A DNA stretch of 25,882 bases from a virus, in the IMG/VR virus record IMGVR_UViG_3300020474_000094, positions 1 to 25,882 of that record. One strand, written 5' to 3'. The notes beneath the pieces were generated by a model. That model was not told the DNA's origin. It worked only from the letters and a program-made list of their open reading frames with translations, and made no database searches. Shown one piece after another: positions 5,210 through 21,587 of this stretch. How positions within the stretch are numbered: position 1 is the stretch's first letter; each line of letters begins with the position of its first letter. The translations under genes and the position numbers were made by a program.

Positions 5210-5238
5210 ATTGTATAGTAAAATGTGGGCATTGTCAA
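5210..5238 (-). promoter_or_regulatory. Sigma70-like promoter P1 for gp43
   Basis: The -35 box TTGACA lies at 5238-5233, followed by a 17-nt spacer starting ATGCCCAC and a -10 box TACAAT at 5215-5210 (five of six to consensus). An AAAAGAC tract precedes the -35. It lies in the 39-nt gap before gp43. It is one of six look-alike promoters in the window (others at 11540, 12051, 13422, 15786 and 21559). The predicted transcription start (about 5203) coincides with the first ATG. Confidence 0.7.
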
Positions 5239-5243
5239 GTCTT

Positions 5244-5480
5244 TTATTCAAATAAAGTTTCTTTTTGTTTTACGGTTGGAAAGTAGATATTGATCATTTC
5301 TAATCTATCATGTGCGGCAGATAGTTTATCTAGTTCTGCCATAACTGCTTCTGTAACATCTGAATGTTCTCCAATACCAGCAGGCATAGTTTGGTATACG
5401 GCGATATTTGCCTTATGTACTTCTATTTCACCTTCAGCCTGCTTCTTTGCAGCTAAAATAATTTGTTCGCCAACTTTCAT
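5244..5480 (-). CDS. Hypothetical small protein
   Basis: Not recognised. A 78-aa, mostly helical and charged protein starting MKVGEQII and ending KETLFE, without cysteines, membrane segments or known motifs. I chose the ATG at 5480 because TAGGAG lies 6 nt before it; the ATG at 5486 directly abuts that Shine-Dalgarno and would add two residues. It lies between the RimK-RimB fusion and the gp43 promoter, 9 nt after the former's stop, and is presumably co-transcribed with it. The alanine/glutamate-rich middle (AAKKQAEGEIEVHKANI) suggests a helical bundle or coiled coil, but no function can be assigned. Confidence 0.7.
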   Translation of the reverse strand: MKVGEQIILAAKKQAEGEIEVHKANIAVYQTMPAGIGEHSDVTEAVMAELDKLSAAHDRLEMINIYFPTVKQKETLFE

Positions 5481-5489
5481 TTTCATCTC

Positions 5490-6950
5490 CTATGATTTGA
5501 TTTTTTTTGGTAACTCGTCCTCATCGTTACTATCCCCTCTTTCAATCCAATCCGATAGGACGAATCTTCTGTTTGGATTGACACTAACTTGAAACAAAGT
5601 CATAAGTCCTCTGTTAGCAAGAAAGTTACTTCTGGAATCTTTTGTTGTAAGTCCTACTGGGCAATCTATGTACTTTCTATTATTGAAAGTGATGTTGACA
5701 TTAACGATTGGTCTTTCGTCTATTTTACCAACATGTTCTGGTTTAGACACACCTTGTAAGGCACTTGTAAATTTCTTTCCACCCTTTTCCCACCGTACAG
5801 TTCTACCAGAAACATCAATTTTATCTACTACAAACATTGATGCATGTGTTCCATTTCCAGTATCAAACTTTGCTCTTAGTGGGCCATATCCTTCTACTTC
5901 AATTCTTTCTACATATCCACTTTCTGTGGAAAATGAGTTTCTACGATTGTTTGAATCCATTACAAAGTCTAGTAACTTATCTACAATCTTAGATGGTTTT
6001 GCTTCTCCTATGTATGCATTATTATCTGACTCTGTATCAGTAGCATCATATAGTGCAAAGTTAGAACCAATACCAGCAGAACCATTACACTCTAGAATAT
6101 ATATTTTTTTACCAACAAGTGCATGATCCACTCCAACAACATATGCACCTACAGAACGGGCAGCTCTTAAAATTACATCTCTTTCATCATCTGATAATTC
6201 ATGTGCTTCAGTTGTAGCGCCTCTATGTCTATTTGAACGAAAATCATCCTTTGGACGTATTCTTTTTGTTGATGCAAGTATCTTACCACCGACTACTATT
6301 GTTCTGATATCATAATCAAATTTTAAGTATTCTTGTATTAAAAGTTCTGCATTAAACTTCCAGAGTGATTGAATATTCGATACTAAACTTTCATAAGAAT
6401 CTACAATAGAAACACCAATACCTTGTGTTCCAGTAATTGATTTAATAATCATAGGAAACTTTTCACCAACTCTTTCAAGTGCATCATCTAAAGATTTTTC
6501 ATTTGATACAATTGATGTTTTTGGTGTAGGTATACTATTTCTTTCAAATGATAAAAACGCTGACATTTTATTATCACAAGTTAACATACCTTCTTTGTTG
6601 TTAATCATGAAAGAACCAGCTTTCTCAAAAGATGTCAAAAGGGCAATACCAATCTCATCTTCTAGAACACCAGCACGAACAAAACATACAGTTTTTCTAG
6701 TATTAAATTCTACTACTTTGTCATTACCATCTACATTAGATACAGTAAGAAGTCCAGTTTCTAAATCGTTTTTATTAATCCACGCTTGACGAACATTAAT
6801 AATGTGACATTTAATTTTTCTTTTGTCACACGCTTTTTGAATTAAATTGCTTACCAGTTCTGGTTTTTTAGATTTAACTTTGGTTAGAATTGCAACTTCG
6901 ATATCAGTATCAATTTTGGCCTCAGTAAAAAAATCGGCAAATTTTTCCAT
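5490..6950 (-). CDS. RimK-like ATP-grasp ligase fused to RimB/retropepsin-like domain
   Basis: A 486-aa two-domain protein. Residues ~90-330 form an ATP-grasp ligase of the RimK type: glycine-rich loop TGTQGIG (173-179), QEYLKFDYDIR (206-216) and metal-binding LECNGSAG (286-293). RimK adds glutamates to the C-terminus of ribosomal protein S6; related ligases act on other substrates. Residues ~345-470 look like the RimB/"ATP-dependent zinc protease" family with a retropepsin fold: RAKFDTGNGTHAS with DTG at 363-365, then ERPIVNVNI, then NRGLM and a hydrophobic RFVL near the end. In bacteria RimK and RimB are separate proteins with opposing activities on S6. Here both halves are in one frame, downstream of regA (18-nt gap, GGAG about 8 nt before the ATG). 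An N-terminal ~90-residue domain precedes the ligase. Substrate unknown; the ribosome is a plausible target. Confidence 0.8.
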   Translation of the reverse strand: MEKFADFFTEAKIDTDIEVAILTKVKSKKPELVSNLIQKACDKRKIKCHIINVRQAWINKNDLETGLLTVSNVDGNDKVVEFNTRKTVCFVRAGVLEDEIGIALLTSFEKAGSFMINNKEGMLTCDNKMSAFLSFERNSIPTPKTSIVSNEKSLDDALERVGEKFPMIIKSITGTQGIGVSIVDSYESLVSNIQSLWKFNAELLIQEYLKFDYDIRTIVVGGKILASTKRIRPKDDFRSNRHRGATTEAHELSDDERDVILRAARSVGAYVVGVDHALVGKKIYILECNGSAGIGSNFALYDATDTESDNNAYIGEAKPSKIVDKLLDFVMDSNNRRNSFSTESGYVERIEVEGYGPLRAKFDTGNGTHASMFVVDKIDVSGRTVRWEKGGKKFTSALQGVSKPEHVGKIDERPIVNVNITFNNRKYIDCPVGLTTKDSRSNFLANRGLMTLFQVSVNPNRRFVLSDWIERGDSNDEDELPKKIKS

Positions 6951-6968
6951 ACACCATCTCCAAGGCTT

Positions 6969-7391
6969 TTAAATTTCTTTTGGTTCTTCTTTTTTCTTAC
7001 CAATATTATATTTTGTCTCCAAAATCCATTCATTTTTTTCTTTGAATGAAATTATTTTAATCTGACTTAATGGTGCCACTGGTTCGATTTCACCCTTTAC
7101 TGTTACAAGACCCCAATCACTTAATAGTTTGCCGATTGTGTTTCGTCTTGCGATATCATTCTCACTTAGATTAGTTTCTTTACCATCTAAAGCAAAAAGT
7201 TCTTTAAAGTGTACTAAGTAATACTTACCTTGTTTATGTAAAATATGACACGATTGATAGAGTTTTCTATCTTTTCTACTTGCAACTCCAATTCTAGATA
7301 ATGTTTCTCTGACTTTGAGAAAATCGTCTGGTTCTTTCAAGACGATCTCTAGCATATCATCTTGTTTCCAATTCAGTTTAACCTCTTCCAT
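6969..7391 (-). CDS. regA: RegA translational repressor
   Basis: T4 RegA homologue. RegA binds around start codons of early phage mRNAs, including clamp and clamp-loader messages, and blocks ribosomes. The stretch LEIVLKEPDDFLKVRETLSR closely follows T4 RegA, as do LYQSCHIL, KYYLVHFKE and the C-terminal IISFKEKNEW...TKYNIG. The protein is about 140 aa versus 122 in T4 because ~12 residues precede the T4-equivalent Met (MLEIVL at 7355) and a short Lys/Glu tail follows. I start at the ATG at 7391, which has AAGGTGG about 8 nt upstream; a GTG at 7400 is also in frame, and the ATG at 7355 has only a weak ribosome site. The start overlaps the end of gp62 by 14 nt, as expected for a coupled replication operon. 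Confidence 0.93.
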   Translation of the reverse strand: MEEVKLNWKQDDMLEIVLKEPDDFLKVRETLSRIGVASRKDRKLYQSCHILHKQGKYYLVHFKELFALDGKETNLSENDIARRNTIGKLLSDWGLVTVKGEIEPVAPLSQIKIISFKEKNEWILETKYNIGKKKEEPKEI

Positions 7392-7770
7392 TTTTTCCAC
7401 CTTTTTTCAAACTATCTTTAATAGTCTTTATCTGTTCATCATTAAGTATACTTAGAGCGGATTTTGCCTTTTCATTACTATATCCATAATACTCTTTTAC
7501 ATACTCTAGATCTTTAAGTTTACTTGCTTTCAACCAAGGATTAAATCTTTTCCGTGGTCTAAGACTATTTAGTAAAAAGTCAAACTGCAACTTATTATCT
7601 AGATGATGTTGGCGGTTCATCTCATTAGTAAGATGAATGGTTTCTGGGTCTAATAAACACTTATTTACGACAAAGGCTGGATATTTCTTTTCCCAAGCCT
7701 CGTCTGGTGTGTCCATTAGTTTTTCTTTGGTATAGTTTATAGCATTTAAATACTCTTTTAATTCATACAT
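7378..7770 (-). CDS. 62: Clamp loader small subunit (gp62-like)
   Basis: Assigned as gp62, which with gp44 loads the sliding clamp. The protein is only 130 aa against 187 in T4, as I recall for marine T4-like phages. Visible features are the YPAFVVNKCL stretch (~30-40), NEMNRQHHLD in the middle, a basic RPRKRFNPW patch (~72-80) and a lysine/glycine-rich tail. Sequence identity to T4 gp62 is too low to see by eye. The call rests on position between gp44 and regA (the T4 order is 45-44-62-regA) and on similarity to what I remember of marine gp62 proteins. The ATG at 7770 has AAGGA about 8 nt upstream and lies 2 nt after the stop of the interposed 2OG oxygenase gene. Confidence 0.8.
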   Translation of the reverse strand: MYELKEYLNAINYTKEKLMDTPDEAWEKKYPAFVVNKCLLDPETIHLTNEMNRQHHLDNKLQFDFLLNSLRPRKRFNPWLKASKLKDLEYVKEYYGYSNEKAKSALSILNDEQIKTIKDSLKKGGKNGRG

Positions 7771-7772
7771 GA

Positions 7773-8324
7773 CTAATCCTTATAGCCATCTAATCTATCC
7801 TTATTATAGATTTGTCCACCCTTATCTAAAGTTTTAAATACTATAACCGTTCTTAGAGTATGACAGTTTCTAGATACAGGCATTGCTTGGTGGCGTGTTT
7901 TTGCTGGAAAACAAATCAATCTGTTACCTTTATATTCTGCAACTTCACCACCTACAATCGTTCCACCCATATCATCCTTACCCCAATCCATTCTAGGATA
8001 ATATATTAAAGTATAATCACCATCATCTATATGTGAAAGTGGTTCTAATCCATGAGTATGAGCATTTAGATAAACTCTTTCCCATTGTAAATCTAGATTT
8101 ATCTTTCTTATGGCAGATTGCCATATAGGCATAATCCAATCCATACCTCTATCTATAAGATTTTGTTCAGTATGACATGCTTGAATATGCCAGTGTTTAC
8201 TAGGAGCACCACCCCTAGAAGGATAATCATATTTCCACGAAAGTTCTTGCACTTCTGAATCTATTAGTTCTGCAACATGTGGTTCAAGTAGATCATCTAT
8301 TATCGTTAATTTATCATACCTCAT
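7773..8324 (-). CDS. 2OG-Fe(II) oxygenase
   Basis: A 183-aa Fe(II)/2-oxoglutarate-dependent oxygenase by motif: first ligands in SHIDDG (His98, Asp100 counted from this start), the distal histidine in TRHQAMP (His145) and a 2OG-anchoring arginine in LRTVIVFK (Arg158). The spacing and the YPRMDW...GGEV...FPA order fit the prolyl-4-hydroxylase-like families common in marine phages. Substrate unknown. The start is the ATG at 8324, which forms an ATGA overlap with the gp44 stop. A TTG at 8360 would extend the protein by 12 residues into gp44 and lacks support. It sits between the two clamp-loader genes, an insertion relative to T4. Confidence 0.85.
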   Translation of the reverse strand: MRYDKLTIIDDLLEPHVAELIDSEVQELSWKYDYPSRGGAPSKHWHIQACHTEQNLIDRGMDWIMPIWQSAIRKINLDLQWERVYLNAHTHGLEPLSHIDDGDYTLIYYPRMDWGKDDMGGTIVGGEVAEYKGNRLICFPAKTRHQAMPVSRNCHTLRTVIVFKTLDKGGQIYNKDRLDGYKD

Positions 8325-9256
8325 TTGAATTTTACCACTCCCATAAGTTCTGTTAGACAAGCCAACAAGTTGATTTCTTGGTCTGCAACAAAAGCTGCTT
8401 TGTATTGATAATCCCCTAGAATAACAACAGCATGAGGAATAGTACTAGGACTAAGATAATCGTATAGCGCATCGTAAATCCTACGATAAATCCTAATAGG
8501 GTCATTATCAAGATTACCGACAATCCACTTTCTAACATTTGTAAATTCCTTTCCTTTTAATGATGCCATTAGTTCTCCAATATTCTTTTCAGAAATATTA
8601 ATAAGAATACCAGCATCAATTTGACCAGTAGCAGAATATCTTTGAAGTTCATTCAAGACTCTACGCCAGTCTGGAAAGTGTTTGTTAATTAATTCAGCAA
8701 CAGCCTTTGGTTCATTTTTTATATCTTCCAATACTAATATCTTTAAGATTCTTTGGAAGAACTCTTCTGCAAGTTTTACCTTGTCACTATTATTAATAGT
8801 AAAATCAATATTAGAACACCTAGAATGTAGTGGTTCAATCAATCTATTTTTATAGTTACAAGTAAGAATAAATCCACAGTTTTTATGAAACTCTTCCATA
8901 AACCCCCTAAGGGCTGGTTGAGTTGATTGTGGATTTAAATAGTCTGCCTCATCTAGGATAATATATTTTCTACCACCCTCTAGACTTACAGTTGAAGCAA
9001 AGTTTTTGATTTTAGTTCTAAGAACGTCAATACCAGATTCTTCTGAACCATTTATCATCATATAAGTAGCACCAATCTCTTCGAGCATTGCTTTTGCAAC
9101 TGTGGTTTTACCCACACCAGCAGTACCAGATAATATGATATTTGGTATTGATTTACTTTTAACAAATTCCTTAAACGTATTCCTTAGATCATCTGGCAGA
9201 ATACATTCGTCAATTCTAGTTGGTCGATATTTCTCGACCCACAAAAAGTTTTCCAT
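8321..9256 (-). CDS. 44: Clamp loader large subunit, AAA+ ATPase (gp44)
   Basis: RFC/DnaX-like AAA+ ATPase that opens and loads the gp45 clamp together with gp62; 311 aa versus 319 in T4. Visible are the N-terminal WVEKYRP box (6-12), Walker A GTAGVGKT (44-51), Walker B LDEAD (101-105), sensor 1 in LTCNY (131-135) and the SRC arginine-finger motif (145-147). The ATG at 9256 lies 17 nt after the clamp gene, preceded by AGGAAAATTATATT; this resembles the RegA-bound leader of T4 gene 44 and may be an operator. The gene ends in an ATGA overlap with the 2OG oxygenase gene. Confidence 0.96.
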   Translation of the reverse strand: MENFLWVEKYRPTRIDECILPDDLRNTFKEFVKSKSIPNIILSGTAGVGKTTVAKAMLEEIGATYMMINGSEESGIDVLRTKIKNFASTVSLEGGRKYIILDEADYLNPQSTQPALRGFMEEFHKNCGFILTCNYKNRLIEPLHSRCSNIDFTINNSDKVKLAEEFFQRILKILVLEDIKNEPKAVAELINKHFPDWRRVLNELQRYSATGQIDAGILINISEKNIGELMASLKGKEFTNVRKWIVGNLDNDPIRIYRRIYDALYDYLSPSTIPHAVVILGDYQYKAAFVADQEINLLACLTELMGVVKFK

Positions 9257-9270
9257 AATATAATTTTCCT
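9257..9270 (-). promoter_or_regulatory. Candidate RegA operator / ribosome-binding site of gene 44
   Basis: The 14 nt before the gene 44 ATG read AGGAAAATTATATT. From memory, T4 RegA protects a similar AGGAAATTATG element on its own gene 44 message, and a RegA homologue is encoded three genes downstream. The AGGA also serves as Shine-Dalgarno, 10 nt from the ATG. Functional assignment is inference. Confidence 0.35.
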
Positions 9271-9273
9271 AAA

Positions 9274-9942
9274 TTAAACTTTATAAGTTGATTCTGGTTC
9301 AAGAGCAATCCAATATTCTACCTTACTAGTTTTATTTTGGAAGTGACTAATATTCTTAGATGATACTGTAACATCATAGTTACCACTTATTAGTTTCATA
9401 TTTTCTACTTTGAAATAGAAATTATATTCTGCACCCTCTGGAGCATCACAATCAACATTCATAGAATAATTATTAGCAGTATCGTTTTTCTTATCCTTTA
9501 CTGTTAGTGAATTATTTTGAAGTGCCATATCTGGTGAAGAAATAACACCAGCAGCCCTTTTAAGTTGATTAATAGTATCTTCTTCTATAGAGAATGTAAC
9601 ATCACTTGACGGCATTGTTATCATTTTAGTTGGACTAGTTACCACACTAGGATCAGAATAGAAATATTTCAAAGATTTCTTTGGACTACCCTCTTCTGAC
9701 ATTATCACAAACTGGTCTTGGAAATCCAAAACTGGTACTGTGAATAAAGATAGAGCAGCAAGAAATTCATTCAAGTCATAAATGGCGACTTCTTTTGGAA
9801 ATGTTTGTTCTACTTCTGCTTTTGCAACGATGTTCTTCATCGCTGACATTGTTGTAAGTGTATTACCTTCTTTGATAATCAAGTTCTGATTAATTGTAGA
9901 GAAGTTTTTTAATACATCTACAGTTTGATTACTTAGTTTCAT
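9274..9942 (-). CDS. 45: Sliding clamp (gp45)
   Basis: DNA polymerase processivity clamp, a trimeric ring in T4 that also activates late transcription with gp55 and gp33. With the start at 9942 it has 222 aa (T4: 228). Matches to T4 include MKLSNQTVDVLKNFSTIN at the N-terminus, VAIYDLNEFLAALSLF, the YSDPSVVTSP stretch and the terminal YWIALEPEST. I chose the ATG at 9942 because AAGGA lies about 8 nt before it and the protein then begins exactly like T4 gp45; an in-frame ATG at 9960 would add six residues. It overlaps the DUF3310-like gene by 14 nt and is followed by gp44 after 17 nt. Confidence 0.93.
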   Translation of the reverse strand: MKLSNQTVDVLKNFSTINQNLIIKEGNTLTTMSAMKNIVAKAEVEQTFPKEVAIYDLNEFLAALSLFTVPVLDFQDQFVIMSEEGSPKKSLKYFYSDPSVVTSPTKMITMPSSDVTFSIEEDTINQLKRAAGVISSPDMALQNNSLTVKDKKNDTANNYSMNVDCDAPEGAEYNFYFKVENMKLISGNYDVTVSSKNISHFQNKTSKVEYWIALEPESTYKV

Positions 9943-10225
9943 TTTCAAGTTCCTTTTCATTATTATAAAGTGCTATTATACCATAATGTATAATCTTAAG
10001 CAAGTCATTTCTGTCCTTACCATTCTTTTTTCCGTATCGTTGTGCATATTTCAATATGTTACCAATACAAAAACCTTCACCATGTCCACCATCTATGATA
10101 AACTCTGTGGCTTGAAACTTGTCCTGCCCGTAGTGTTTAGTATAAGTAGCGTCAACATAAGTTCTAAGTTCAGCAAGAATTTTATCCTCGTTGAACTTAT
10201 AATCAATATCTTTATGATATTTCAA
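9929..10225 (-). CDS. DUF3310-like small protein
   Basis: A 98-aa protein with GFCIGNILKYAQRYGKKNG (51-69) followed by DRNDLLKIIHYGIIALY. This resembles the N-x-I-K-Y-x-x-R-x-x-x-K...DL-x-K-A...Y pattern of the DUF3310 family of phage proteins, whose role is not clear to me. It has no in-frame ATG before the domain: the only usable start is TTG at 10225, preceded by GAGGAGG with 6-nt spacing and directly adjacent to the TAG stop of the upstream gene. It lies immediately before gp45, overlapping its start by 14 nt, suggesting a nucleotide- or replication-related role, but that is only context. Confidence 0.75.
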   Translation of the reverse strand: MKYHKDIDYKFNEDKILAELRTYVDATYTKHYGQDKFQATEFIIDGGHGEGFCIGNILKYAQRYGKKNGKDRNDLLKIIHYGIIALYNNEKELENETK

Positions 10226-11179
10226 CTAAGCCCTCCTCAATGATTTAATATAATTTTCTTGGTCTTCTGGACTAGTTTTGCCCATTTTCTTTAAATGCAA
10301 TTTGTCAATTACATTAACATTCGTAGAGAATGTTCTTCGTTCTCCATCCCCATAAAAAGGCATAACCGAATGGCGTAACCAATTAGGGAACAAATACATA
10401 ACACCCTTTTCAGGCTTTACATATTCATCTGTAGCAGGTCTAAGAATCTTAGTGTCTGCTCTTCCATTACTTCCCCATGAGAAATAAGTGAATCCATCTA
10501 CTCCACCAGAATTATTATTCAAATGGTTTTGATCTTCTGCATTTTTCTTTTCAATTGCCTCTGGAACTTTTAAATACAAAATACACGATAGTCCGAAAGG
10601 TGTAGCAACACCGTGATCGTGTAAAGGATTATAGTCGCCAGAATAACTGTGAACTGACCATGCTTCAAATGCATCTACTACTGCATCAATATCATGTCCA
10701 TTTTTTAAATACGTTCTTGCACACTGGTCAATAATAGTTTTTACTTGTGATGGAATAGATCCCTCTTCTTCATCTGTAATTGGAAAGACAAGTTGTGCTG
10801 ATTTACTATTTTGTTTGATTTGTCCTACAAGTCCACCAGCCAAACTATTTTTTGTAGTTGTATTACCAGCAGTTTCACCGAATTTTTCATCTTGTGTTAC
10901 AATATTTTCATCAATGTATTTATTAATTTCGTCAATGGCATCACTTGGAATTTCAACTCGCATCATATGTAGAGCAAGTTTAGTTTTCATTGAAACTTTT
11001 AATCCACTATTTTGTTTTTCATGTTCTGCATCAGCATCAGCCATTGTTTCTGCATCTGCAACTGCTTTTTCTGCATCAGTGGGTACTTCTTCGTTAGAAC
11101 TCCAATGTTCTTTATCTGGTGTAGCAACACCACCATCTTTAAACTCTTCTGGCGCAATGTCAAATGTTTTTAAACCCAT
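10226..11179 (-). CDS. 2OG-Fe(II) oxygenase (2OG-FeII_Oxy_5-like)
   Basis: A 317-aa protein with a C-terminal oxygenase domain: NPLHDHG (first metal ligands around His187 and His189 from this start), SCILYLKVP, then GVMYLFPNWLRHSV with the distal His270 and GERRTFSTNVNV with the 2OG-binding arginine (281/282). The FP-x-W-L-x-H...R-x-S/T-x-x-x-N ending is typical of the phage-rich 2OG-FeII_Oxy_5 family. The first ligand pair reads HDH rather than the usual HxD. The N-terminal ~120 residues are acidic and Ala/Glu/Asp-rich (EKAVADAETMADADAEHEKQ) and probably unstructured. The ATG at 11179 has AAGGAG 6-7 nt upstream; an extension to 11233 would run into a hairpin. Substrate unknown. Confidence 0.8.
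   Translation of the reverse strand: MGLKTFDIAPEEFKDGGVATPDKEHWSSNEEVPTDAEKAVADAETMADADAEHEKQNSGLKVSMKTKLALHMMRVEIPSDAIDEINKYIDENIVTQDEKFGETAGNTTTKNSLAGGLVGQIKQNSKSAQLVFPITDEEEGSIPSQVKTIIDQCARTYLKNGHDIDAVVDAFEAWSVHSYSGDYNPLHDHGVATPFGLSCILYLKVPEAIEKKNAEDQNHLNNNSGGVDGFTYFSWGSNGRADTKILRPATDEYVKPEKGVMYLFPNWLRHSVMPFYGDGERRTFSTNVNVIDKLHLKKMGKTSPEDQENYIKSLRRA
10232..10238 (-). promoter_or_regulatory. Strong Shine-Dalgarno GAGGAGG before a TTG start
   Basis: GAGGAGG lies 6 nt before the TTG at 10225-10223, inside the 3' end of the upstream oxygenase gene. No in-frame ATG exists near it, so this site decides the start of the DUF3310-like gene. Confidence 0.6.
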
Positions 11180-11207
11180 AATATATCTCCTTGGTTTAAG
11201 TGAAAGA

Positions 11208-11230
11208 GGGTGGCGAACATGCCGCCACCC
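11208..11230 (-). terminator. GC-rich hairpin between winged-helix gene and 2OG oxygenase gene
   Basis: A perfect 8-bp stem GGGTGGCG/CGCCACCC with a 7-nt loop, the most GC-rich structure in this AT-rich stretch. On the minus-strand transcript it is followed by UCUUUCACUU, which is U-rich but not a clean U-run, so it may be a weak terminator, attenuator or processing/stability element. It sits in the 66-nt gap before the oxygenase gene, which has no obvious promoter of its own; some read-through would be needed. Confidence 0.55.
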
Positions 11231-11245
11231 CAAAGTTTATTATGA

Positions 11246-11500
11246 TTATGCTGTGTAACCTTGAGCACCGAATAGTGCAGATTGTCCAGCCGCGATTACG
11301 GCTTTACTTGGTGTACCAACTCTATAAGAAACACCTTTTGATCCTCTATTTTCATAGATCATCATACCTTCGTTTCTTAGTTTACCAACCATAGAAGCTG
11401 GTGATTGTAGGTCAAATTTAGTCCTTAGAGTTTTCCAAGTTACGTCTTTGCCTTTTGCAAAAAGATTTCTGATTTTTGCTGTCTTTGTCATTTTCTTCAT
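11246..11500 (-). CDS. Small winged-helix/HTH protein
   Basis: An 84-aa basic protein: MKKMTKTAKIRNLFAKGKDVTWKTL gives a helix and turn, TKFDLQSPASMVGKLRNEGMM a probable recognition helix, and IYENRGSKGVSYRVG the strand pair of a wing. This is the usual look of phage winged-helix proteins in T4-like marine phages, which may regulate transcription or bind DNA structurally. The tail (SKAVIAAGQSALFGAQGYTA) is alanine-rich. The ATG at 11500 has AAAGG about 6 nt upstream; the longer reading from 11539 would start inside the promoter region. It has its own sigma70-like promoter (-10 at 11540-11545) and is followed by a GC-rich hairpin, so it could be an independently transcribed unit. Confidence 0.75.
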   Translation of the reverse strand: MKKMTKTAKIRNLFAKGKDVTWKTLRTKFDLQSPASMVGKLRNEGMMIYENRGSKGVSYRVGTPSKAVIAAGQSALFGAQGYTA

Positions 11501-11539
11501 GTTATACCTTTCATAGTATAGTTTTAATGTTAGAATCAT

Positions 11540-11568
11540 ATACTAACATATCTTGGGGGCTTTGTCAA
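11540..11568 (-). promoter_or_regulatory. Sigma70-like promoter P2 for winged-helix gene
   Basis: The -35 TTGACA at 11568-11563, a 17-nt spacer beginning AAGCCCCC and ending ATGT (an extended TGn), and the -10 TAGTAT at 11545-11540. The -35 box lies in the loop and arm of a GC-rich hairpin (11553-11575) that follows the sHSP gene. Same family as the promoters at 5210, 12051, 13422, 15786 and 21559. Confidence 0.65.
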
Positions 11569-11575
11569 CCCCCAA
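11553..11575 (-). terminator. Hairpin after sHSP gene, overlapping promoter P2
   Basis: Stem TTGGGGG/CCCCCAA (7 bp) with a 9-nt loop, placed 8 nt after the sHSP stop codon at 11583. On the minus-strand transcript it is followed by GAUAUGUU, not a proper U-run, so termination may be inefficient. The promoter -35 TTGACA sits in its loop. Confidence 0.5.
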
Positions 11576-11582
11576 AATTCTT

Positions 11583-12023: not shown

Positions 12024-12050
12024 TGTTTTCTCCTTTTTAAAGCAAGATTA

Positions 12051-12079
12051 ATAATGACAACCCTTTATGGCATTGTCTA
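12051..12079 (-). promoter_or_regulatory. Sigma70-like promoter P3 for sHSP gene (weaker match)
   Basis: The -35-like TAGACA at 12079-12074, a 17-nt spacer beginning ATGCC and ending TTGT (TGn), and the -10-like CATTAT at 12056-12051. It is weaker than its relatives but keeps the GCC after the -35 and the TG before the -10. Confidence 0.5.
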
Positions 12080-12088
12080 TAGTATATA

Positions 12089-12118
12089 TGGGGATTAAAA
12101 ATCATATTTCAACCCCCA
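12089..12118 (-). terminator. Possible terminator hairpin after tRNA-Trp
   Basis: TGGGGGTT can pair with AATCCCCA (8 bp, one G-U) around a 14-nt AT-rich loop, 12 nt downstream of the tRNA 3' end. The transcript continues with UAUAUACUAU rather than a U-run, so it may act in tRNA processing or weak termination before promoter P3. Confidence 0.4.
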
Positions 12119-12130
12119 CATAATTTTTTT

Positions 12131-12203
12131 TGGAGCGGGCAGATGGAATTGAACCACCTTCTTCAATTTGGAAATTGACATAATACCTTTATACGATGCC
12201 CGC
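12131..12203 (-). tRNA. tRNA-Trp (CCA anticodon)
   Basis: A 73-nt cloverleaf. The acceptor stem GCGGGCA (12203-12197) pairs with TGCCCGC near the 3' end, followed by discriminator T and an encoded CCA (12133-12131). The anticodon arm is TCAAT/ATTGA with loop TTCCAAA, giving anticodon CCA for Trp. The T arm is GGTGG-TTCAATT-CCATC with one G-T pair. The D stem is weak, containing wobble pairs. The gene starts 7 nt after the AAA+ ATPase stop codon and is probably cut out of that transcript. No other tRNA is visible in the window. Confidence 0.9.
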
Positions 12204-12210
12204 ATTTTTC

Positions 12211-13386: not shown

Positions 13387-13421
13387 AATATATAACCTCT
13401 CTCAATTTTCATCATACTTAT

Positions 13422-13450
13422 AAGCTAACACAATAATAGGGCAATGTCAA
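13422..13450 (-). promoter_or_regulatory. Sigma70-like promoter P4 for AAA+ gene
   Basis: The -35 TTGACA at 13450-13445, preceded by an A-run and GAC, a 17-nt spacer beginning TTGCCC and ending TGTGT, and a -10 position reading TAGCTT. The following TATAAGTATGATG is almost the same as in the promoter of the VWA gene (15786). The -10 itself is a poor consensus match, so the alignment with its relatives is the main evidence. Confidence 0.55.
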
Positions 13451-13467
13451 GTCTTTTTTTTAGGCCC

Positions 13468-13485
13468 TGATTTTACAGCGTTTTT
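13468..13485 (+). repeat. Inverted repeat, copy 1 (downstream of VWA gene)
   Basis: TGATTTTACAGCGTTTTT, an 18-bp perfect inverted match to 15841-15858. It lies 3 bp beyond the VWA gene stop and upstream of the AAA+ promoter. The sequence is not itself palindromic. Function unknown: possible protein-binding site, RNA pairing element or trace of a cassette. Confidence 0.75.
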
Positions 13486-13487
13486 CA

Positions 13488-15758: not shown

Positions 15759-15785
15759 GGTATTTCCTCTCATCATCATATGTAT

Positions 15786-15814
15786 AAGCTGACATACTTT
15801 TGAGGCAAAGTCAA
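15786..15814 (-). promoter_or_regulatory. Sigma70-like promoter P5 for VWA gene
   Basis: The -35 TTGACT at 15814-15809 is preceded by AAAGAC; a 17-nt spacer begins TTGCC and ends TATGT; the -10 position reads CAGCTT followed by ATACATATGATG. It is clearly a sister of the promoter at 13422, including the downstream TATGATGA. The -10 hexamer is a poor match to consensus on its own. Confidence 0.55.
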
Positions 15815-15840
15815 GTCTTTTTTTCACTTTTTTTGAATTA

Positions 15841-15858
15841 AAAAACGCTGTAAAATCA
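15841..15858 (+). repeat. Inverted repeat, copy 2 (upstream of VWA gene)
   Basis: AAAAACGCTGTAAAATCA, the exact reverse complement of 13468-13485. It lies 11 bp past the SGNH hydrolase stop and about 27 bp upstream of the VWA promoter -35. The two copies bracket the VWA gene plus its promoter. Confidence 0.75.
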
Positions 15859-15869
15859 ATGGCTTACTA

Positions 15870-16886
15870 TCACGCCCACTTGGTATTCCACTCTTTATAT
15901 AGGTATTCTGCCAGATATTTGTGGCCTGATTCGTTTGGATGCGAATCACTTACTCCCATTCTATACTTTTCATCACGAATTATTGATGATGCTGTATCTC
16001 CACCAAGATCATTGAATATAGGCCAACCGACAAATGTTTCATTATTCATAGAAAGCATATAATCTGTAGTCATTAAATGATCTATTACTTTTCTCCTTTC
16101 TATCTTATAATCTTGATCCTCAAACCAAGTAAAAAATGGATTAGTTCCCACCATCTGTAAATATGGTATTTTTTCATTTTCACAAATACTTTGAATTGCA
16201 TACCAATATCGTAGACTTTGATTCCACGATGTTTCAATTTGCCATATACCTAACTTTAATGTATTATCTGCAAGGTAATCAAAATCTGTTGGTGATCTTT
16301 GTTTATTATCATTGAGTTTAATTTCTAAAATAATATCTTCAAGTTGTTTTTTAAATGTATCAATTTCTTCATTTATATTTTTAAGAATGTCTTTTGTTTG
16401 TAGGCGGTTGTGCTTAATCATAGTGACCATTCTATCTACCGTTGCACCATGTAATTGTCTTTGAACTATGCCTTTATCAAGAAATGTTTTATAACGCTGT
16501 TCTAGTGACATATGTGTTTGTCTTTTATTACCAAGAGACCGTCTAGGACTCCAATGGAAAAAACCGCTGTCCGTTACTGAATTATAACCACTTAAATTTT
16601 TATTCTTATGAATTTCAAAATCAATTCTATCTGGTTCACTCCACATACAAACCACACCACCAATATTATCACCATAATTTATGACATCCACAGCTTTATT
16701 GAATATCTGTTGATTACCAGACCCAGAGTTTCCTAGATTTAAGACTTCCATATCTAAATGTTTAGCAAGATGTTCAGGCCATTTGGGCCAATCGGTGTTT
16801 GCATCTTTATAAACAGAACTTTTGAAGTTTTTATCCGTCCAACTGTCACCAATACAGACTAAAACTTGTCTATCTGATTTCCCCAT
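15870..16886 (-). CDS. SGNH/GDSL-family hydrolase
   Basis: A 338-aa putative esterase/acylhydrolase. Block I is CIGDSWTD near the N-terminus (catalytic Ser), block II NLGNSGSGNQ supplies the oxyanion Gly and Asn, and block V SDSHPNESGHKYLAE near the C-terminus supplies the D-x-x-H dyad. The ~150-residue insert between blocks II and V is helical and of unknown role. Such enzymes deacylate sugars or lipids; in phages they may trim surface polysaccharide or act on nucleoside-linked groups, but no substrate is evident. No signal peptide is seen. I chose the ATG at 16886 (AAGGA about 7 nt upstream) over the ATG at 16895. It overlaps the MT-A70 gene by about 28 nt. Confidence 0.85.
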   Translation of the reverse strand: MGKSDRQVLVCIGDSWTDKNFKSSVYKDANTDWPKWPEHLAKHLDMEVLNLGNSGSGNQQIFNKAVDVINYGDNIGGVVCMWSEPDRIDFEIHKNKNLSGYNSVTDSGFFHWSPRRSLGNKRQTHMSLEQRYKTFLDKGIVQRQLHGATVDRMVTMIKHNRLQTKDILKNINEEIDTFKKQLEDIILEIKLNDNKQRSPTDFDYLADNTLKLGIWQIETSWNQSLRYWYAIQSICENEKIPYLQMVGTNPFFTWFEDQDYKIERRKVIDHLMTTDYMLSMNNETFVGWPIFNDLGGDTASSIIRDEKYRMGVSDSHPNESGHKYLAEYLYKEWNTKWA

Positions 16887-17416
16887 GATTCCCATCCTTC
16901 TCTTTTAGTTCTTGCAAATAATTCAACATAAGGCCCATCTAATAAATCTTCAATATAATTATATATCTCATCAGGCTTTCTGGAATGTTCTCTTCTAGGA
17001 CTCATGACTAATTGTTTAACCGATTTTGATTTTCTCTGTGGTTTACCCCTAGTTGCAAGCAAACACATTTCTGGATTAGCTCGTGTCCAATAACCCATGC
17101 CTGTAAACATACCTATATCTTTTTTATTTTGTTTTGCCCATGTAAACCCCACAGTTTTATATTGGAAACCCCACGCTTCAATAACTTTAAAAGCTTCTGG
17201 GAGCATTGGGTCAACACACCACATGAGTAATGCACAATCTTCATCAGCAAGATTCTGAATAGGTAACTTACAAATATCAGATATAGACATACAATTATAA
17301 TGCTGTGTAGCATTACGTCCTTCCCCCTTTGAAGAGTAAGAACGAAAGTACCAAGGTGGGTCTGCATAAATTACTTTGTATTTAACTGATGTGGCTAAAG
17401 TTTCTAAGTTTTTCAA
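16859..17416 (-). CDS. MT-A70-family adenine-N6 DNA methyltransferase
   Basis: A 185-aa SAM-dependent methyltransferase with the catalytic DPPW at 19-22 after VIYAD, then CALLMWCVDPMLPEAF, FTWAKQN, GYWTRANPEMCLLATRG, and EHSRKPDEIYNYIE, the order and wording of the MT-A70/Dam-like family that methylates adenine N6. It could protect phage DNA from restriction or mark it. There is no in-frame ATG near the N-terminus; the start at 17416 is TTG without a clear Shine-Dalgarno, within the last 35 nt of gp46, so expression probably depends on coupling. Start uncertain; function fairly sure. Confidence 0.9.
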   Translation of the reverse strand: MKNLETLATSVKYKVIYADPPWYFRSYSSKGEGRNATQHYNCMSISDICKLPIQNLADEDCALLMWCVDPMLPEAFKVIEAWGFQYKTVGFTWAKQNKKDIGMFTGMGYWTRANPEMCLLATRGKPQRKSKSVKQLVMSPRREHSRKPDEIYNYIEDLLDGPYVELFARTKREGWESWGNQIDKF

Positions 17417-19085
17417 ATTTTACTACATTTCTAAATTTATCTACTAGTTGATCTTGTTTGTGTGATATAATGAATACATTTTCATTTTCTAAAGTTCCTA
17501 ATATTTTTAAGAACTCTTCTGTTCCAGTTCCATCTAGTGAACTATCGAATATCTCATCAAGTATTAGTAGATTAGTATTTGTTGAGTTTTTCATTTTTGC
17601 AATTGCACGCCAAGTAAAGAGTAGTGCAAGGTCTATTCGCATCTTCTCTCCTTCACTAAATGATGCATAATTAAAATCATCACGGAATCTAGACTTAATA
17701 GTTTCATTAAAGTTTTCATCTAAATTAAAGTTAACATAAAATTCCATAGATTGTAAGTAAGCATTAATTAGTTTATTCATGATAGGAAGATACTGTTTAA
17801 TAATCTTAGTCTTGATTCCAGTATCTTGTAACATTGCTTTTGCAGCTTCATTATATTGTTGTTCATCTTTTAAAGATGATTGTTGTTTATCTAACTCATC
17901 TAATTTAGTTTGTAAACCGTCTAAGTTAGTTTCATCTGCTGACTTTTCGTTACTATCTAACTGTGTTAGTTCTGTTTCTAGTTTAACATTAAACTTTTCC
18001 AACTCTGATTTAGAATATCCTATAGAAGATATTTTCACATCTAACTCTCTAATATTTTGAGTATTAGTTTCTATCTCTTCTTGTCTTTTTTGAGTATTTT
18101 CCATCTCTTGTTTGAGTTGTTTCATACCATCTTCTAGTTCGTCAAGTTCTCCTTGTTTAGTAGAGAGGATTTCATCTTTAAATGCTTGAGCGATTTCTTG
18201 ATCACATGTCGGACATGTTTCATTGTCTTTAAAAAAATCAACTGATTTACTATGACTTTTATGTTTCTCTACTAGAGTAGCACGAATACCCAACATCTTT
18301 TGTATTTTTTGTTCTACTTTATTTGCATCCGAAATCTGTCCTAGATATTCTTCTTTTTTAGATTTTAATTCATCAATTTCATTTTCTCTTCTACCTATTT
18401 CTTTTTTATTTTGTTCTATCTGTCTTTTCTTATCGGTTCTTAGTTTTGCTTTTTCGCTTTTACTTTCATTGATGTATTTACTAGACAGATCAAACTCTGT
18501 TTGTGTAACCTCAAACTTATGTGAAACTTCTCTAGTTTCATCTACAATATTCTTTATGTGTGTTTTTACAATCATATTCATCATCGAAAAGATTTTGATA
18601 TCTAATATCTCTTCAACAACTTCTCTTCTTTTCATTGCTTTAAGTTGCATAAACGGAGCCCATGATGCACTTCCAAGAATAACTACTTGTGTGAAAGAAC
18701 CATAGTTTAGTTTTAAGATTTGTTGTTCTAGTATCTTTTGATAATCTCTAGCATGCGCTTCTTGATTCACCATTACATCATCACAATAGATTTCAAACTT
18801 ATTTGGTTTGATACCTCTAAATACCCTATAGTTTTTTGTTCCGATTTTAAATGTAACTTCTACTTCTGTTCCAGTACCATTAATAGAATTGATTAGTTGA
18901 TTTTTACTAATCACTCTAAATGGTTTGCCAAACAAACCAAAACACAGTGCATCTAGTATTGTTGATTTACCAGCACCATTGTCACCAATAATAAGTGTTT
19001 GTGGATTTCTATCTAAGTCAATGCTAATACCAGTGTTACCAGTTGATAAAAAATTCTTCCATTTCACATTCTTAAATATAATCAA
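17382..19085 (-). CDS. 46: Recombination nuclease subunit, Rad50/SbcC-like (gp46)
   Basis: ATPase subunit of the gp46/gp47 complex that resects DNA ends for recombination-dependent replication; 567 aa versus 560 in T4. Visible are Walker A GDNGAGKS (34-41) and FGLFGKPFR, a long coiled coil on both sides of the zinc hook CPTC (291-294), the ABC signature in SFSEGEKMRIDLALLFTW, and Walker B LLILDEIFD. The frame has no early ATG; the likely start is TTG at 19085, which makes a TTGA overlap with the stop of the nucleotidyltransferase gene and has AGGGGGA about 9 nt upstream. It overlaps the MT-A70 gene at its end. Confidence 0.95.
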   Translation of the reverse strand: MIIFKNVKWKNFLSTGNTGISIDLDRNPQTLIIGDNGAGKSTILDALCFGLFGKPFRVISKNQLINSINGTGTEVEVTFKIGTKNYRVFRGIKPNKFEIYCDDVMVNQEAHARDYQKILEQQILKLNYGSFTQVVILGSASWAPFMQLKAMKRREVVEEILDIKIFSMMNMIVKTHIKNIVDETREVSHKFEVTQTEFDLSSKYINESKSEKAKLRTDKKRQIEQNKKEIGRRENEIDELKSKKEEYLGQISDANKVEQKIQKMLGIRATLVEKHKSHSKSVDFFKDNETCPTCDQEIAQAFKDEILSTKQGELDELEDGMKQLKQEMENTQKRQEEIETNTQNIRELDVKISSIGYSKSELEKFNVKLETELTQLDSNEKSADETNLDGLQTKLDELDKQQSSLKDEQQYNEAAKAMLQDTGIKTKIIKQYLPIMNKLINAYLQSMEFYVNFNLDENFNETIKSRFRDDFNYASFSEGEKMRIDLALLFTWRAIAKMKNSTNTNLLILDEIFDSSLDGTGTEEFLKILGTLENENVFIISHKQDQLVDKFRNVVKFEKLRNFSHIS

Positions 19086-19414
19086 ACTGGTATCCCCCTA
19101 ATATCTGTCGCTGATATGTTTTCAATTTCTTCATCAAAATGTTCTTGTTCAATCTTATAACCAACATCTCTTCCATATGTAATATTCACTATATTAGGAA
19201 CATCCATAATAATATAGTCGTGGTTATATACAAACCCTTCACGAAATAGTTTATCTACCAAATCATCTCTATCGTGATACTCTTCGCCAGTATCACGAAT
19301 CATTATTGCAACTTGCCCAGTTTTACTATGAGCTCGTTTAAAAAGCTCTGTATGTCCGTCATGCCATGGTTGATATCGTCCAAGCATTTGGACAGTTGGT
19401 TTTTGTCGATCCAT
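19082..19414 (-). CDS. HxGH-motif nucleotidyltransferase
   Basis: A 110-aa cytidylyltransferase-like protein: LGRYQPWHDGHTELFKRA carries the HxGH nucleotide-binding motif (18-21), and ISATDIR near the C-terminus corresponds to the ISSTxIR-type motif of the superfamily (NMN, pantetheine-phosphate and related adenylyltransferases). A CTP- or ATP-dependent transfer onto a small phosphate is likely; the substrate is unknown. The ATG at 19414 has TAAGGA about 8 nt upstream, so independent translation is possible. It nevertheless overlaps the upstream kinase ORF by 112 nt in the -1 frame and starts exactly where a kinase domain would end, so the two may be halves of one bifunctional protein. Confidence 0.75.
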   Translation of the reverse strand: MDRQKPTVQMLGRYQPWHDGHTELFKRAHSKTGQVAIMIRDTGEEYHDRDDLVDKLFREGFVYNHDYIIMDVPNIVNITYGRDVGYKIEQEHFDEEIENISATDIRGIPV

Positions 19415-19761
19415 TTTGTAATCCTTACGTCATAATTAATAGGTTGTTCAAAAGTTTTATTGGTATCTTCATATATACTACTTGGAATTTTATCCATCCA
19501 GATAATTACTTCTGGATCAAATATTCGTACTGTTTCCTCTGTAGGACATATAAATGAAGAAATACTTATTGGGTTCAAACAACTAAGATTATGCATCCTA
19601 AATGCTTGTCGTATTCTTCCTTCTTCTGAAAAATCCCAATCATTATATATGTTACGAACCACATCTGCATCCCAATGTGGGATACTAAATTTTTTACCTA
19701 TATGTGATGCTATCCAAGTTTTACCATTTTGTGGCAAACCCATTACTAATATTCTTCTCAT
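19303..19761 (-). CDS. APS-kinase-like P-loop kinase
   Basis: A 152-aa P-loop protein: Walker A GLPQNGKT (8-15), DADVVRN (31-37), then DWDFSEEGRIRQAFRM, which follows the D-G-D-x-V-R...F-S-x-x-x-R pattern of adenylylsulfate kinases (CysC), and VIIWMDK as a later strand. It may phosphorylate a nucleotide or small metabolite; true APS kinase activity is unproven. It begins in an ATGA overlap with gp47. The last ~37 codons overlap the nucleotidyltransferase in another frame and look unlike a folded domain, so the functional end may be near residue 117, where a -1 shift would enter the nucleotidyltransferase. Confidence 0.65.
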   Translation of the reverse strand: MRRILVMGLPQNGKTWIASHIGKKFSIPHWDADVVRNIYNDWDFSEEGRIRQAFRMHNLSCLNPISISSFICPTEETVRIFDPEVIIWMDKIPSSIYEDTNKTFEQPINYDVRITKWIDKNQLSKCLDDINHGMTDIQSFLNELIVKLGKLQ

Positions 19762-20819
19762 ATTTCTAAGTCTTGTGCTTCCGTATATAGTTGTTTCATA
19801 ATATATTTTAGTTTCTTTTTATTTAAGTCAATTGACAAATCATCTACATATCTATCTAGAATTGTAAGTGTGTCTTGTGTTCCTTCTACGATTTCATCTG
19901 AAACATTACTAGCATTCAATTCAGAAAAATCTTCTACAATTTTTACTTCATGTGCATCTGCTTTTAAAAGTTTCTCCGTAAACTTATCAAATGTATATAA
20001 ATCTTTTTTATTTACAACAATGAGTTTTACATACTTGTTTGCATATTGTGTAAAATCGTGGTTATCATAATTCTTCATAGAATCATCATAATATATCTTT
20101 TGAAATATTTGATGAGGATTTTCTATTCTAGTCAATTCTCTAGTTTCTGTATCAAATATATGAAACCCTTTTGGACATCCATAATCACTCCATGTCATCT
20201 GATATGGTGTTCCCAAATAAAACACTTGTCCATCATCTGATTTCTTATGAAAGTGACCAGAAAATACAGTATCAAATTTTTGAAACTCTTTCTTTTCCCA
20301 ACCAGTTTCCGATACATGTCCAGCATGCATTTCAAATCCTTTAAGTTCTAAATGCGACATACAAACCGTTGCTGGTGTTTCATCAATCATACCAAATGAA
20401 TATATTTCATTTGATGGATTAATCCAAGGTAACATAAGAATAGGCATACCACCAAAGTCCACAGTTTCTGCTTCTGCATACATATGAATATTTTTATAGT
20501 TAGTACCTATAAGTTCTTGCAAAGAGTTTACATCATTTGTATTTTTAAAATAGATATCGTGATTACCAACTAACATATGTAAGTTAATATCTAAAACATT
20601 AAATGGTAAAAGAAATCTTTCTCTAAAGTTTTTTGCAGTTCTATAAGAAATATACTTCCTTCTATCCATCACATCGCCGAGATGGATACAATGTTTTATA
20701 TTGTGTTGTTGTAGATATGGAAAAAATATTCCTTCATAAAACTTATAAAAGTAATCATCAAAAAATATATTATCATTCCGAGCACCAAAATGAGTGTCGG
20801 TTACTAAAGCAATTTTCAT
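19758..20819 (-). CDS. 47: Recombination nuclease subunit, Mre11/SbcD-like (gp47)
   Basis: Metallophosphoesterase nuclease partner of gp46; 353 aa. All metal-binding motifs are visible: DTHFG (Asp8, His10), LGDVMDRR (Asp49), VGNHD (Asn86, His87, Asp88), MSHLE (His156) and GHFH (His189, His191). The C-terminal ~120 residues are the less conserved capping and gp46-binding part. It is translationally linked on both sides by ATGA overlaps: its start with the zinc-ribbon gene and its stop with the kinase gene. Confidence 0.95.
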   Translation of the reverse strand: MKIALVTDTHFGARNDNIFFDDYFYKFYEGIFFPYLQQHNIKHCIHLGDVMDRRKYISYRTAKNFRERFLLPFNVLDINLHMLVGNHDIYFKNTNDVNSLQELIGTNYKNIHMYAEAETVDFGGMPILMLPWINPSNEIYSFGMIDETPATVCMSHLELKGFEMHAGHVSETGWEKKEFQKFDTVFSGHFHKKSDDGQVFYLGTPYQMTWSDYGCPKGFHIFDTETRELTRIENPHQIFQKIYYDDSMKNYDNHDFTQYANKYVKLIVVNKKDLYTFDKFTEKLLKADAHEVKIVEDFSELNASNVSDEIVEGTQDTLTILDRYVDDLSIDLNKKKLKYIMKQLYTEAQDLEI

Positions 20820-20986
20820 ACGTTAAATCTTCCTTGTATTTCTTTTTTACGATAAACTAATACAAAGGCTTCGCAGTTTGGACATGTTAAATTTGTTTCC
20901 ATATCAAACTCTTCTTCATTTAAATCATCGTCAACATCTTGGTCACCACCCCATATTAACTCTGTGTGACAAAACCAGCATTTCAT
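20816..20986 (-). CDS. Small zinc-ribbon protein (56 aa)
   Basis: A short gene easily missed by length filters. It encodes MKCWFCHTELIWGGDQDVDDD..., with cysteines in CWFC (3-6) and CPNC (35-38) separated by an acidic stretch, the two knuckles of a zinc ribbon, and ends IQGRFNV. Its ATG overlaps the gp55 stop and its TGA overlaps the gp47 ATG, both as ATGA, so it is clearly built into the gp55-gp47 operon. Comparable small Cys4 proteins occur in marine T4-like phages, from memory, with no known role. It may bind RNA polymerase, DNA or a partner protein. Confidence 0.85.
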   Translation of the reverse strand: MKCWFCHTELIWGGDQDVDDDLNEEEFDMETNLTCPNCEAFVLVYRKKEIQGRFNV

Positions 20987-21531
20987 TCTATATCCTCTTC
21001 ATCCATAAAATTTTCTAATCCAACTCTTTTACTCTCTGTTTCTTCTTTTTTCTTTTTTGGTTTATATACTGCTTCATCTGGCACCATTACATTTGGGTCA
21101 AATCCTACAACACTGTACTTTGAAGTATCACCATCAATTGTATCAAAAGGAATATATTCTTGTTTTGAAATAAGTTGATGTTTCACATGTGTTTGTTTCT
21201 TTTCTTTTGCAATTCGTCTAAGAAATGCATAGTATATAATTTGTGTAAAATATGCAAAGGGATTATTGGATTTCTCTGGATTGAAGTTGTGTAAATATTG
21301 TAAACAATTTTCAATACCGTCTGCAACCATTTCATCTTTGTATGTATAATTTATAAAGTTAGGACGATAAGACAACCCTTGTGCTATCTTTAAAAAGCAC
21401 GAACCGATATAATTAGATATAGGTGGTTTATCATCTGTTTCTTCCATCTCTATACATAGTTGTTTATAATCCTTCATTGCTTGAAGAAACTTCTTATTAT
21501 CTACATAGTGAGGTTTTTGTTTTTTATTCAT
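20983..21531 (-). CDS. 55: Late transcription sigma factor (gp55)
   Basis: Homologue of T4 gp55, the phage sigma factor that directs host RNA polymerase to TATAAATA late promoters when bound to the clamp. 182 aa versus 185 in T4. The matching parts are HYVDNKKFLQAMKDYK near the N-terminus, IAQGLSYRPNFINYTYKDEMVADGIENCLQYLHNF (sigma region 2-like) and NPFAYFTQIIYYAFLRRIAKEKK. The C-terminus is acidic. It has its own sigma70-like promoter (21559-21587) and AAGGA about 10 nt before the ATG. Two TATAAATA boxes in the window fit its expected specificity. Confidence 0.95.
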   Translation of the reverse strand: MNKKQKPHYVDNKKFLQAMKDYKQLCIEMEETDDKPPISNYIGSCFLKIAQGLSYRPNFINYTYKDEMVADGIENCLQYLHNFNPEKSNNPFAYFTQIIYYAFLRRIAKEKKQTHVKHQLISKQEYIPFDTIDGDTSKYSVVGFDPNVMVPDEAVYKPKKKKEETESKRVGLENFMDEEDIE

Positions 21532-21558
21532 CCTAATATATCCTTGTAGTTAGGTCTT

Positions 21559-21587
21559 ATACTACATCAATTTGGGGCTATTGTCAA
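21559..21587 (-). promoter_or_regulatory. Sigma70-like promoter P6 for gp55
   Basis: The -35 TTGACA at 21587-21582, a 17-nt spacer beginning ATAGCCCC and ending GATG, and the -10 TAGTAT at 21564-21559. It lies in the 67-nt gap before gp55 and would drive the gp55-gp47-gp46 operon. It shares its -10 with the promoter at 11540. Confidence 0.65.

Follow-up and report, generated by a model that had tools for sequence, protein, structure and literature searches.

Predicted Early Promoters with a G/C Spacer Block in a Marine T4-Like Phage and Their Relation to Promoter Stem-Loop Composites

Introduction

The 25,882-nt stretch of viral DNA analyzed here (IMG/VR record IMGVR_UViG_3300020474_000094, positions 1–25,882; hereafter the window) carries on its minus strand six promoter-like strings, which an earlier note had grouped as one family with a fixed GCC word behind the −35 hexamer, and the question arises of whether these strings form a promoter family and what the GCC letters represent. 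In the reading considered here as the probable one, five of them (sites 1, 2, 4, 5, and 6) are early promoters for the sigma70-type polymerase of the host, and a block of G/C in the spacer is a lineage-specific part of the family consensus, probably inherited and spread with the promoter cassette. The window phage appears to be a T4-like marine myophage, with a T4-like cluster of replication and regulation genes on the minus strand (gp43, a RegA-type regulator, clamp-loader subunits, gp55, Hsp20, a CobS-like ATPase, and a phrog_459 protein). Among cultured phages, Melnitz EXVC044M, a Methylophilales phage of the Kyanoviridae, is the nearest (gp43 identity, 64%), and two uncultured contigs are closer, namely G1 (G001; 148 kb; gp43 identity, 95%) and G2 (G002; 21 kb; 83%). 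Coding and non-coding DNA were distinguished by our own simple gene caller, and gene starts are approximate.

The Six Sites and the Spacer Block

All six 29-mers are present, each with a 17-nt spacer, and GCC follows the −35 hexamer after 2 nt in sites 1–5 and after 3 nt in site 6:

5210–5238, minus strand: site 1, predicted gp43 promoter; −35 TTGACA at 5233–5238, GCCC at 5227–5230, −10 TACAAT at 5210–5215; gp43 promoters also in G1 (93583) and G2.
11540–11568, minus strand: site 2, predicted promoter before orf97; −35 TTGACA at 11563–11568, GCCCCC at 11555–11560, −10 TAGTAT at 11540–11545; G1 orthologue at 99949.
12051–12079, minus strand: site 3, a non-promoter overlapping the leader hairpin of the small heat shock protein (sHSP) gene.
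13422–13450, minus strand: site 4, predicted promoter before the CobS-like AAA+ gene; −35 at 13445–13450, GCCC at 13439–13442, extended −10 TGT-TAGCTT; orthologues in G1 (101296) and G2 (2290).
15786–15814, minus strand: site 5, predicted promoter before the phrog_459 gene ("peptidase"; VWA in the first reading); −35 TTGACT at 15809–15814, GCC at 15804–15806, extended −10 TGT-CAGCTT; G1 orthologue at 103658.
21559–21587, minus strand: site 6, predicted promoter before gp55; −35 at 21582–21587, GCCCC after 3 nt, −10 TAGTAT at 21559–21564; G1 orthologue at 109336.

The flanking letters attributed to the family are present in part: AAGAC ahead of the −35 is found as AAAGAC in sites 1, 4, and 5 and not in the others, and TG ahead of the −10 adjoins it directly as TGT in sites 2–5, is shifted by one in site 6, and is missing from site 1. 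Five of the six sites carry the −35, TGn, and −10 elements with sigma70 spacing, apart from these deviations and from weak −10 boxes in sites 4 and 5. The intergenic location of all six is returned by the gene caller, the longest open reading frames extending into sites 2 and 5, and the placement of the family ahead of early/middle-type genes seems to hold.

Chance resemblance, i.e., a reader's pick among promoter-like strings of AT-rich DNA, is favored by the abundance of such strings in the window and by the fact that one of the six sites is truly no promoter; a plain sigma70 consensus scan of the window yielded 100 matches with 94.7 expected and was discarded as uninformative in AT-rich DNA. 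Against chance stands the scan of a relative with a matrix of the six sites, a check that the earlier note had proposed: above 9 bits, G1 yielded 30 matches and the ten Markov controls 3–9 each; of the 20 best G1 matches, 19 lie on the coding strand. In Melnitz, the matrix found 14 matches, compared with 2–9 in controls. At least one of the G1 matches (97974, like window 9621) falls within the gene of the sliding clamp and is presumably spurious. Together with the block-free spacer test described below, the matrix excess and strand bias disfavor chance, which is regarded as highly improbable.

The six-site matrix contains the block, and therefore a separate test was conducted without the block positions. 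Candidates were all TTGAC strings of non-coding DNA that are followed by a TAnnnT-like box at 16–18 nt, a bonus being given for TG ahead of the −10 and for 17-nt spacing, and spacer positions 1–14 were left out of the choice. This rule returned 25 sites in G1, 23 of them on the coding strand and all with a 17-nt spacer. In these 23 promoters, spacer positions 3, 4, and 5 are G or C in 14, 21, and 19 cases, respectively (for position 4, p = 1.8e-8 given a non-coding G+C of 0.341); without the four orthologues of window sites, the counts at positions 3, 4, and 5 are 11, 17, and 15 of 19. Furthermore, a GS pair within positions 3–5 occurs in 15/19 promoters, compared with 0–3/19 in eight other triplets. 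C or G stands just ahead of TTGAC in 23/23 promoters, with an A-rich stretch further upstream, and the extended −10 (T15 in 19/23, G16 in 18/23) results partly from the choice rule.

The block is not the fixed GCC word that had been claimed. The letters after the −35 of site 4 are TTGCCC in the window, ATGGGT in the G1 orthologue, and TTGGCCC in that of G2, so that GGG and GGCCC replace the word at orthologous positions. Upstream of gp43, TTGAC occurs within 130 nt in 63 of the 74 loci examined (80 were found, and 6 were omitted for short upstream DNA), and few of these gp43 promoters in more distant relatives retain GCC. G or C is better conserved than the exact letters: the block is real and recurs at non-orthologous promoters of G1, but its letters vary. 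Scans of viral contigs with the pattern GAC-TTGACAWTGCC found promoters in contigs of varied G+C and also matches inside long open frames; they are unfit as an enrichment test because the pattern itself demands GCC.

A Predicted Promoter Within a Stem-Loop at Site 2

Site 2 is a composite of a predicted early promoter and a covarying stem-loop:

11550–11578, minus strand: site 2 hairpin; arms ATTTTGGGGG (11569–11578) and CCCCCAAGAT (11550–11559), with a 9-nt loop containing the −35.

The −35 thus sits in the loop of a 10-bp hairpin (p = 0.000, 200 shuffles) in which GCCCCC is the 3′ stem arm, and the folding energy of a 71-nt piece, a further small hairpin included, is −23.5 kcal/mol (z −5.1). 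In 160 loci (1.02 Mb), TTGAC occupies the loop of 65 distinct hairpins, of which 46 have a well-placed −10 (sHSP loci, 37; gp43 loci, 9), versus 4/58, 8/56, 7/24, 6/45, 6/30, and 2/21 for six control loop motifs; for the loop motif TTTAC, the count is 12/57. Promoters behind the sHSP gene were collected from 80 loci, of which 3 were too short and 3 promoterless by the rule, and gave 44 distinct sites; in two of the loci without a promoter by the choice rule, L236 and L238, the hairpin is nevertheless visible. The stem is kept in 42 of the 44, and the mean stem score of 24.9 compares with an average of 14.7 and a maximum of 16.7 once the 3′ sides are re-dealt. In 34 of the 42 composites, the 3′ arm begins at spacer position 4 or 5, which is the place of the G/C block elsewhere. 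The window-like loop GAC-TTGACA-TTG, with arm CC or CT, forms hairpins in L222, L227, L229, and L239. When six composite pieces were folded as RNA, z was −4.9 to −6.5 for five and −1.4 for L227. The idea that the GCC letters belong to a hairpin at all sites was considered and rejected, only site 2 forming one.

The RNA Hairpin at Site 3

The family does not have the six members originally counted, for site 3 is a covarying RNA hairpin within the sHSP mRNA leader:

12056–12077, minus strand: sHSP leader hairpin GACAA-tGCC-ATAAA-GGG-TTGTC, kept among the leaders of relatives.
12039–12047, minus strand: TCTTGCTTT, between the leader hairpin and the Shine-Dalgarno sequence.

Its reading as a promoter was rejected on the grounds that G2 keeps the hairpin while the "−10" CATTAT reads CGCTAA. 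The G2 letters form a better hairpin than those of the window, the latter being no better than shuffles (z −0.55). From 80 loci, 48 sHSP leaders were listed and duplicates were removed; the GCC..GGG core is present in 36 distinct leaders and absent in 2, the flanking stem is present in 34 of the 36 versus at most 14 in 1000 re-dealings, and TTGCTT follows the hairpin invariantly in the 25/25 aligned leaders. The hairpin together with UCUUGCUU (window 12024–12077) could be an RNA thermometer or a 5′-end stabilizer.

Melnitz and HTVC008M carry the T4 late motif TATAAATA just upstream of the leader hairpin, and in many sHSP loci (L206, L236, L239, and window 12080–12125), a second stem-loop of the GGGGTTGNAAT..ATTNCAATCC type, followed by TATATAATA or TATAAATA, is seen just before this hairpin. 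Further upstream, between the CobS-like ATPase and sHSP genes, a tRNA-like gene is found at 12131–12203 (Rfam tRNA, E 1.3e-7), the anticodon loop of which ARAGORN cannot assign. The Rfam scan of the window returned this tRNA and one weak match below the gathering score on its opposite strand, and no match for the sHSP leader hairpin.

Predicted Leaderless gp43 mRNAs

At site 1, the gp43 ATG (5204) lies 5 nt after the −10, and the mRNA is predicted to be leaderless. Of 49 distinct gp43 promoters, 43 have their first in-frame start codon 5–8 nt past the −10, 33 of them at exactly 6 nt; the distance is 12 nt in 2 and 27 nt in 4 of the remainder. A start 6 nt after the −10 places the start codon at the predicted first base, and a leaderless gp43 mRNA is predicted in 43/49 relatives; such an mRNA would lack space for the translational operator by which T4 DNA polymerase is controlled. 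At G1 62721 and 85618 (the latter just upstream of a uvsX match), the distance from the −10 to the called gene start is also 6 nt. Separately, ATGATGA coincides with, or lies close to, the predicted transcription starts of sites 1, 4, and 5 (5196–5204, 13409–13415, and 15773–15779), and ATGATG or a variant recurs downstream of several G1 promoters.

Genome Placement, Dialects, and the Role of the Block

In G1, with gene classes assigned by homology, the stretch from 109336 to 132518 (uvsY, gp23–gp18, gp17, gp14, and gp13) is free of family sites, and two family-like sites lie in the tail-gene region (132518 and 140787). Exact copies of TATAAATA stand close ahead of gp22, gp21, gp18, gp8, and uvsY, and not directly ahead of gp23. 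Searches for MotA and AsiA gave no match at E ≤ 1 in G1, Melnitz, and HTVC008M (T4 positive control, 3.2e-63 and 2.3e-43), other factors not being searched for. A MotA-like box was accordingly rejected as a reading of the block, a full TTGAC −35 being present, as the choice of the sites required, and the block lying nearer to the −10.

The promoters of other phages, chosen by the same rule, show dialects of their own. Those of Melnitz mostly have GCC ahead of TTGAC and contain an inverted repeat, TGTT-N5-AACA, in the spacer; by eye, it was seen in 11 of 27 candidate promoters (MZ577097.1, L083–L085), where it looks like an operator or a structural element. Stems of at least 4 bp occur in 17/27 Melnitz spacers with 6.0 expected, a count reached by 0/1000 shuffles, and in 1/23 spacers of G1 and 3/15 of HTVC008M. 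A spacer dyad in G1 was rejected, the stem score being 5.83 versus 6.31 in shuffles. The HTVC008M promoters tend to GC-TTGACT and TTGTGATATAAT.

These data bear on the possibility that the spacer block is the binding site of a phage- or host-encoded activator or repressor and that the promoters form a regulon. The block is position-specific, the Melnitz dyad resembles an operator, and orf97, the gene following site 2, shows a winged-helix match that is weak and misses the cut-off (E 0.045). However, the word varies at orthologous sites, the G1 spacers are free of the dyad, and MotA and AsiA, the two regulators searched for, were undetected in the three relatives; moreover, the MotA box is centered at −30 in T4 (PMC2988021), whereas the block lies near −26. 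Evidence for a dedicated activator was not obtained, and a regulon of this kind is considered unlikely, though it is the foremost of the alternatives.

Slightly less credence is given to the view that the host polymerase itself prefers an A/T-flanked block or that the block acts through DNA shape in the spacer, in which case the block would be convergent and not inherited. G or C is kept better than the letters, in line with this view, and weaker versions are found in four related contigs and in T4. By contrast, the Melnitz and HTVC008M spacers differ at positions 5–7, and the host side offers little for comparison: two SAR11-like genomes, picked by a 16S oligo among 385 alphaproteobacterial genomes, contain 4 (G305, 800 kb searched) and 2 (G215, 400 kb) TTGAC-17-TAnnnT sites before genes, and they may not represent the host of the window phage. 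For HTVC008M, a SAR11 phage, 13 such sites were noted, versus almost none in the two genomes. A genome scan with phage S21 gave 40 loci, SAR11 not being among them.

Proposed Mechanism

The favored reading, early promoters with a block inherited in the cassette, would operate as follows. The phage would capture the host RNA polymerase early in infection via strong sigma70-type promoters; with A-rich upstream DNA, a consensus −35, a 17-nt spacer, and a mostly extended −10, these should therefore compete well without a phage activator, in the manner of T4 early promoters. The G/C block at spacer positions 3–5 would travel with promoter copies and is most likely not a protein-binding word; inheritance with the cassette is suggested because the block sits where the 3′ arm starts in the composites of related phages, and stemless copies would have retained the block without the partner arm. 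At a composite, incoming upstream transcription would meet a terminator-like hairpin while new transcription starts on the same DNA. Promoter boxes, block, covarying hairpin, and the absence of the family from the uvsY–gp13 stretch can be read from the letters themselves; from these, we infer promoter activity, termination, and the descent of stemless from stem-loop copies.

Several observations weigh against this reading. In sites 4 and 5, the −10 shares 3/6 and 2/6 bases with TATAAT, and TG and the 17-nt spacing are partly built into the G1 set because the choice rule rewards both. Four further contigs of the group show a weaker bias (G/C at positions 3–5 in 13, 19, and 15 of 28), and the first 50 kb of T4 has its own flank and spacer pattern in 11 sites (G/C at positions 3–5 in 5, 5, and 5 of 10); given this mild bias in T4 early promoters, the block may be a general polymerase effect. 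It is one lineage's version of a feature that T4-like phages in general seem to have. The retention of G/C at 17/19 G1 sites could reflect selection for something else. Regarding the composites, the control loop motif TGACT, which overlaps TTGACT, has a well-placed −10 in 14/30 cases; as G-rich arms are common, an average of 20.2 of the 44 re-dealt composites (maximum, 27) still pass the stem threshold; and the hairpins are strong, but the U-tracts after their stems are modest, mostly 3–5 T in 8. No partner arm was found at the other window promoters, a hairpin at p ≤ 0.05 being formed at 1/6 window sites (site 2) and at 0/24 G1 sites, the best of which is the site 2 orthologue (0.06). With the hairpin possible at site 2 alone, an origin of the remaining copies from stem-loops is put forward conditionally.

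A bolder proposal is that marine T4-like phages use a promoter class with the −35 in the loop of a terminator-like hairpin and that, in stemless members, the block is kept because a phage or host factor, or the spacer itself, sets the firing time, replacing the MotA/AsiA switch; this is considered unlikely. In published analyses, which used general tools, 31 early promoters were predicted in Melnitz with BPROM and middle promoters were not found, and the prediction of middle and late promoters failed in pelagimyophages (PMC9004378, PMC7029224). The promoter family, its per-phage dialects, and the composites with the −35 in the loop provide a concrete definition for annotating and testing transcription programs.

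Comparison with Known Systems

The sites combine known kinds, namely T4-type early promoters and composite stem-loop promoters, in a lineage-specific variant. T4 early promoters (Pe), which stand ahead of prereplicative genes, are likewise multi-element strong sigma70 promoters and, according to a review (PMC2988021), carry a family-wide consensus beyond UP, −35, TGn, and −10; the block, taken in the earlier note as a sign of an extra determinant, does not by itself call for one. The T4 sites use TTTAC and another flank, whereas this lineage uses TTGACA and a GSC spacer block. MotA-dependent T4 middle promoters similarly have an element near −30 to −25 besides the −10, and WWTGC letters occur in some of the present sites; in contrast, a full −35 is present here, the element lies nearer to the −10, and neither MotA nor AsiA was detected in the three relatives searched.

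Promoter-early stem-loops (PeSLs) of T4-like phages, reportedly described by Arbiol in 2010 and Comeau in 2014, are said to combine an early promoter with an intergenic stem-loop. They are also reported to mediate gene shuffling between relatives. The likeness to them lies in the early promoter joined to an intergenic stem-loop at site 2 and in 42/44 relatives, sites 1, 4, 5, and 6 being without one. PeSLs also figure in PMC4503421. The arrangement differs: in the 45 kb of RB49 examined, five TTGAC promoters have a stem-loop nearby, which covers the spacer and −10 or is placed downstream, whereas in the composites described here, the −35 lies in the loop.

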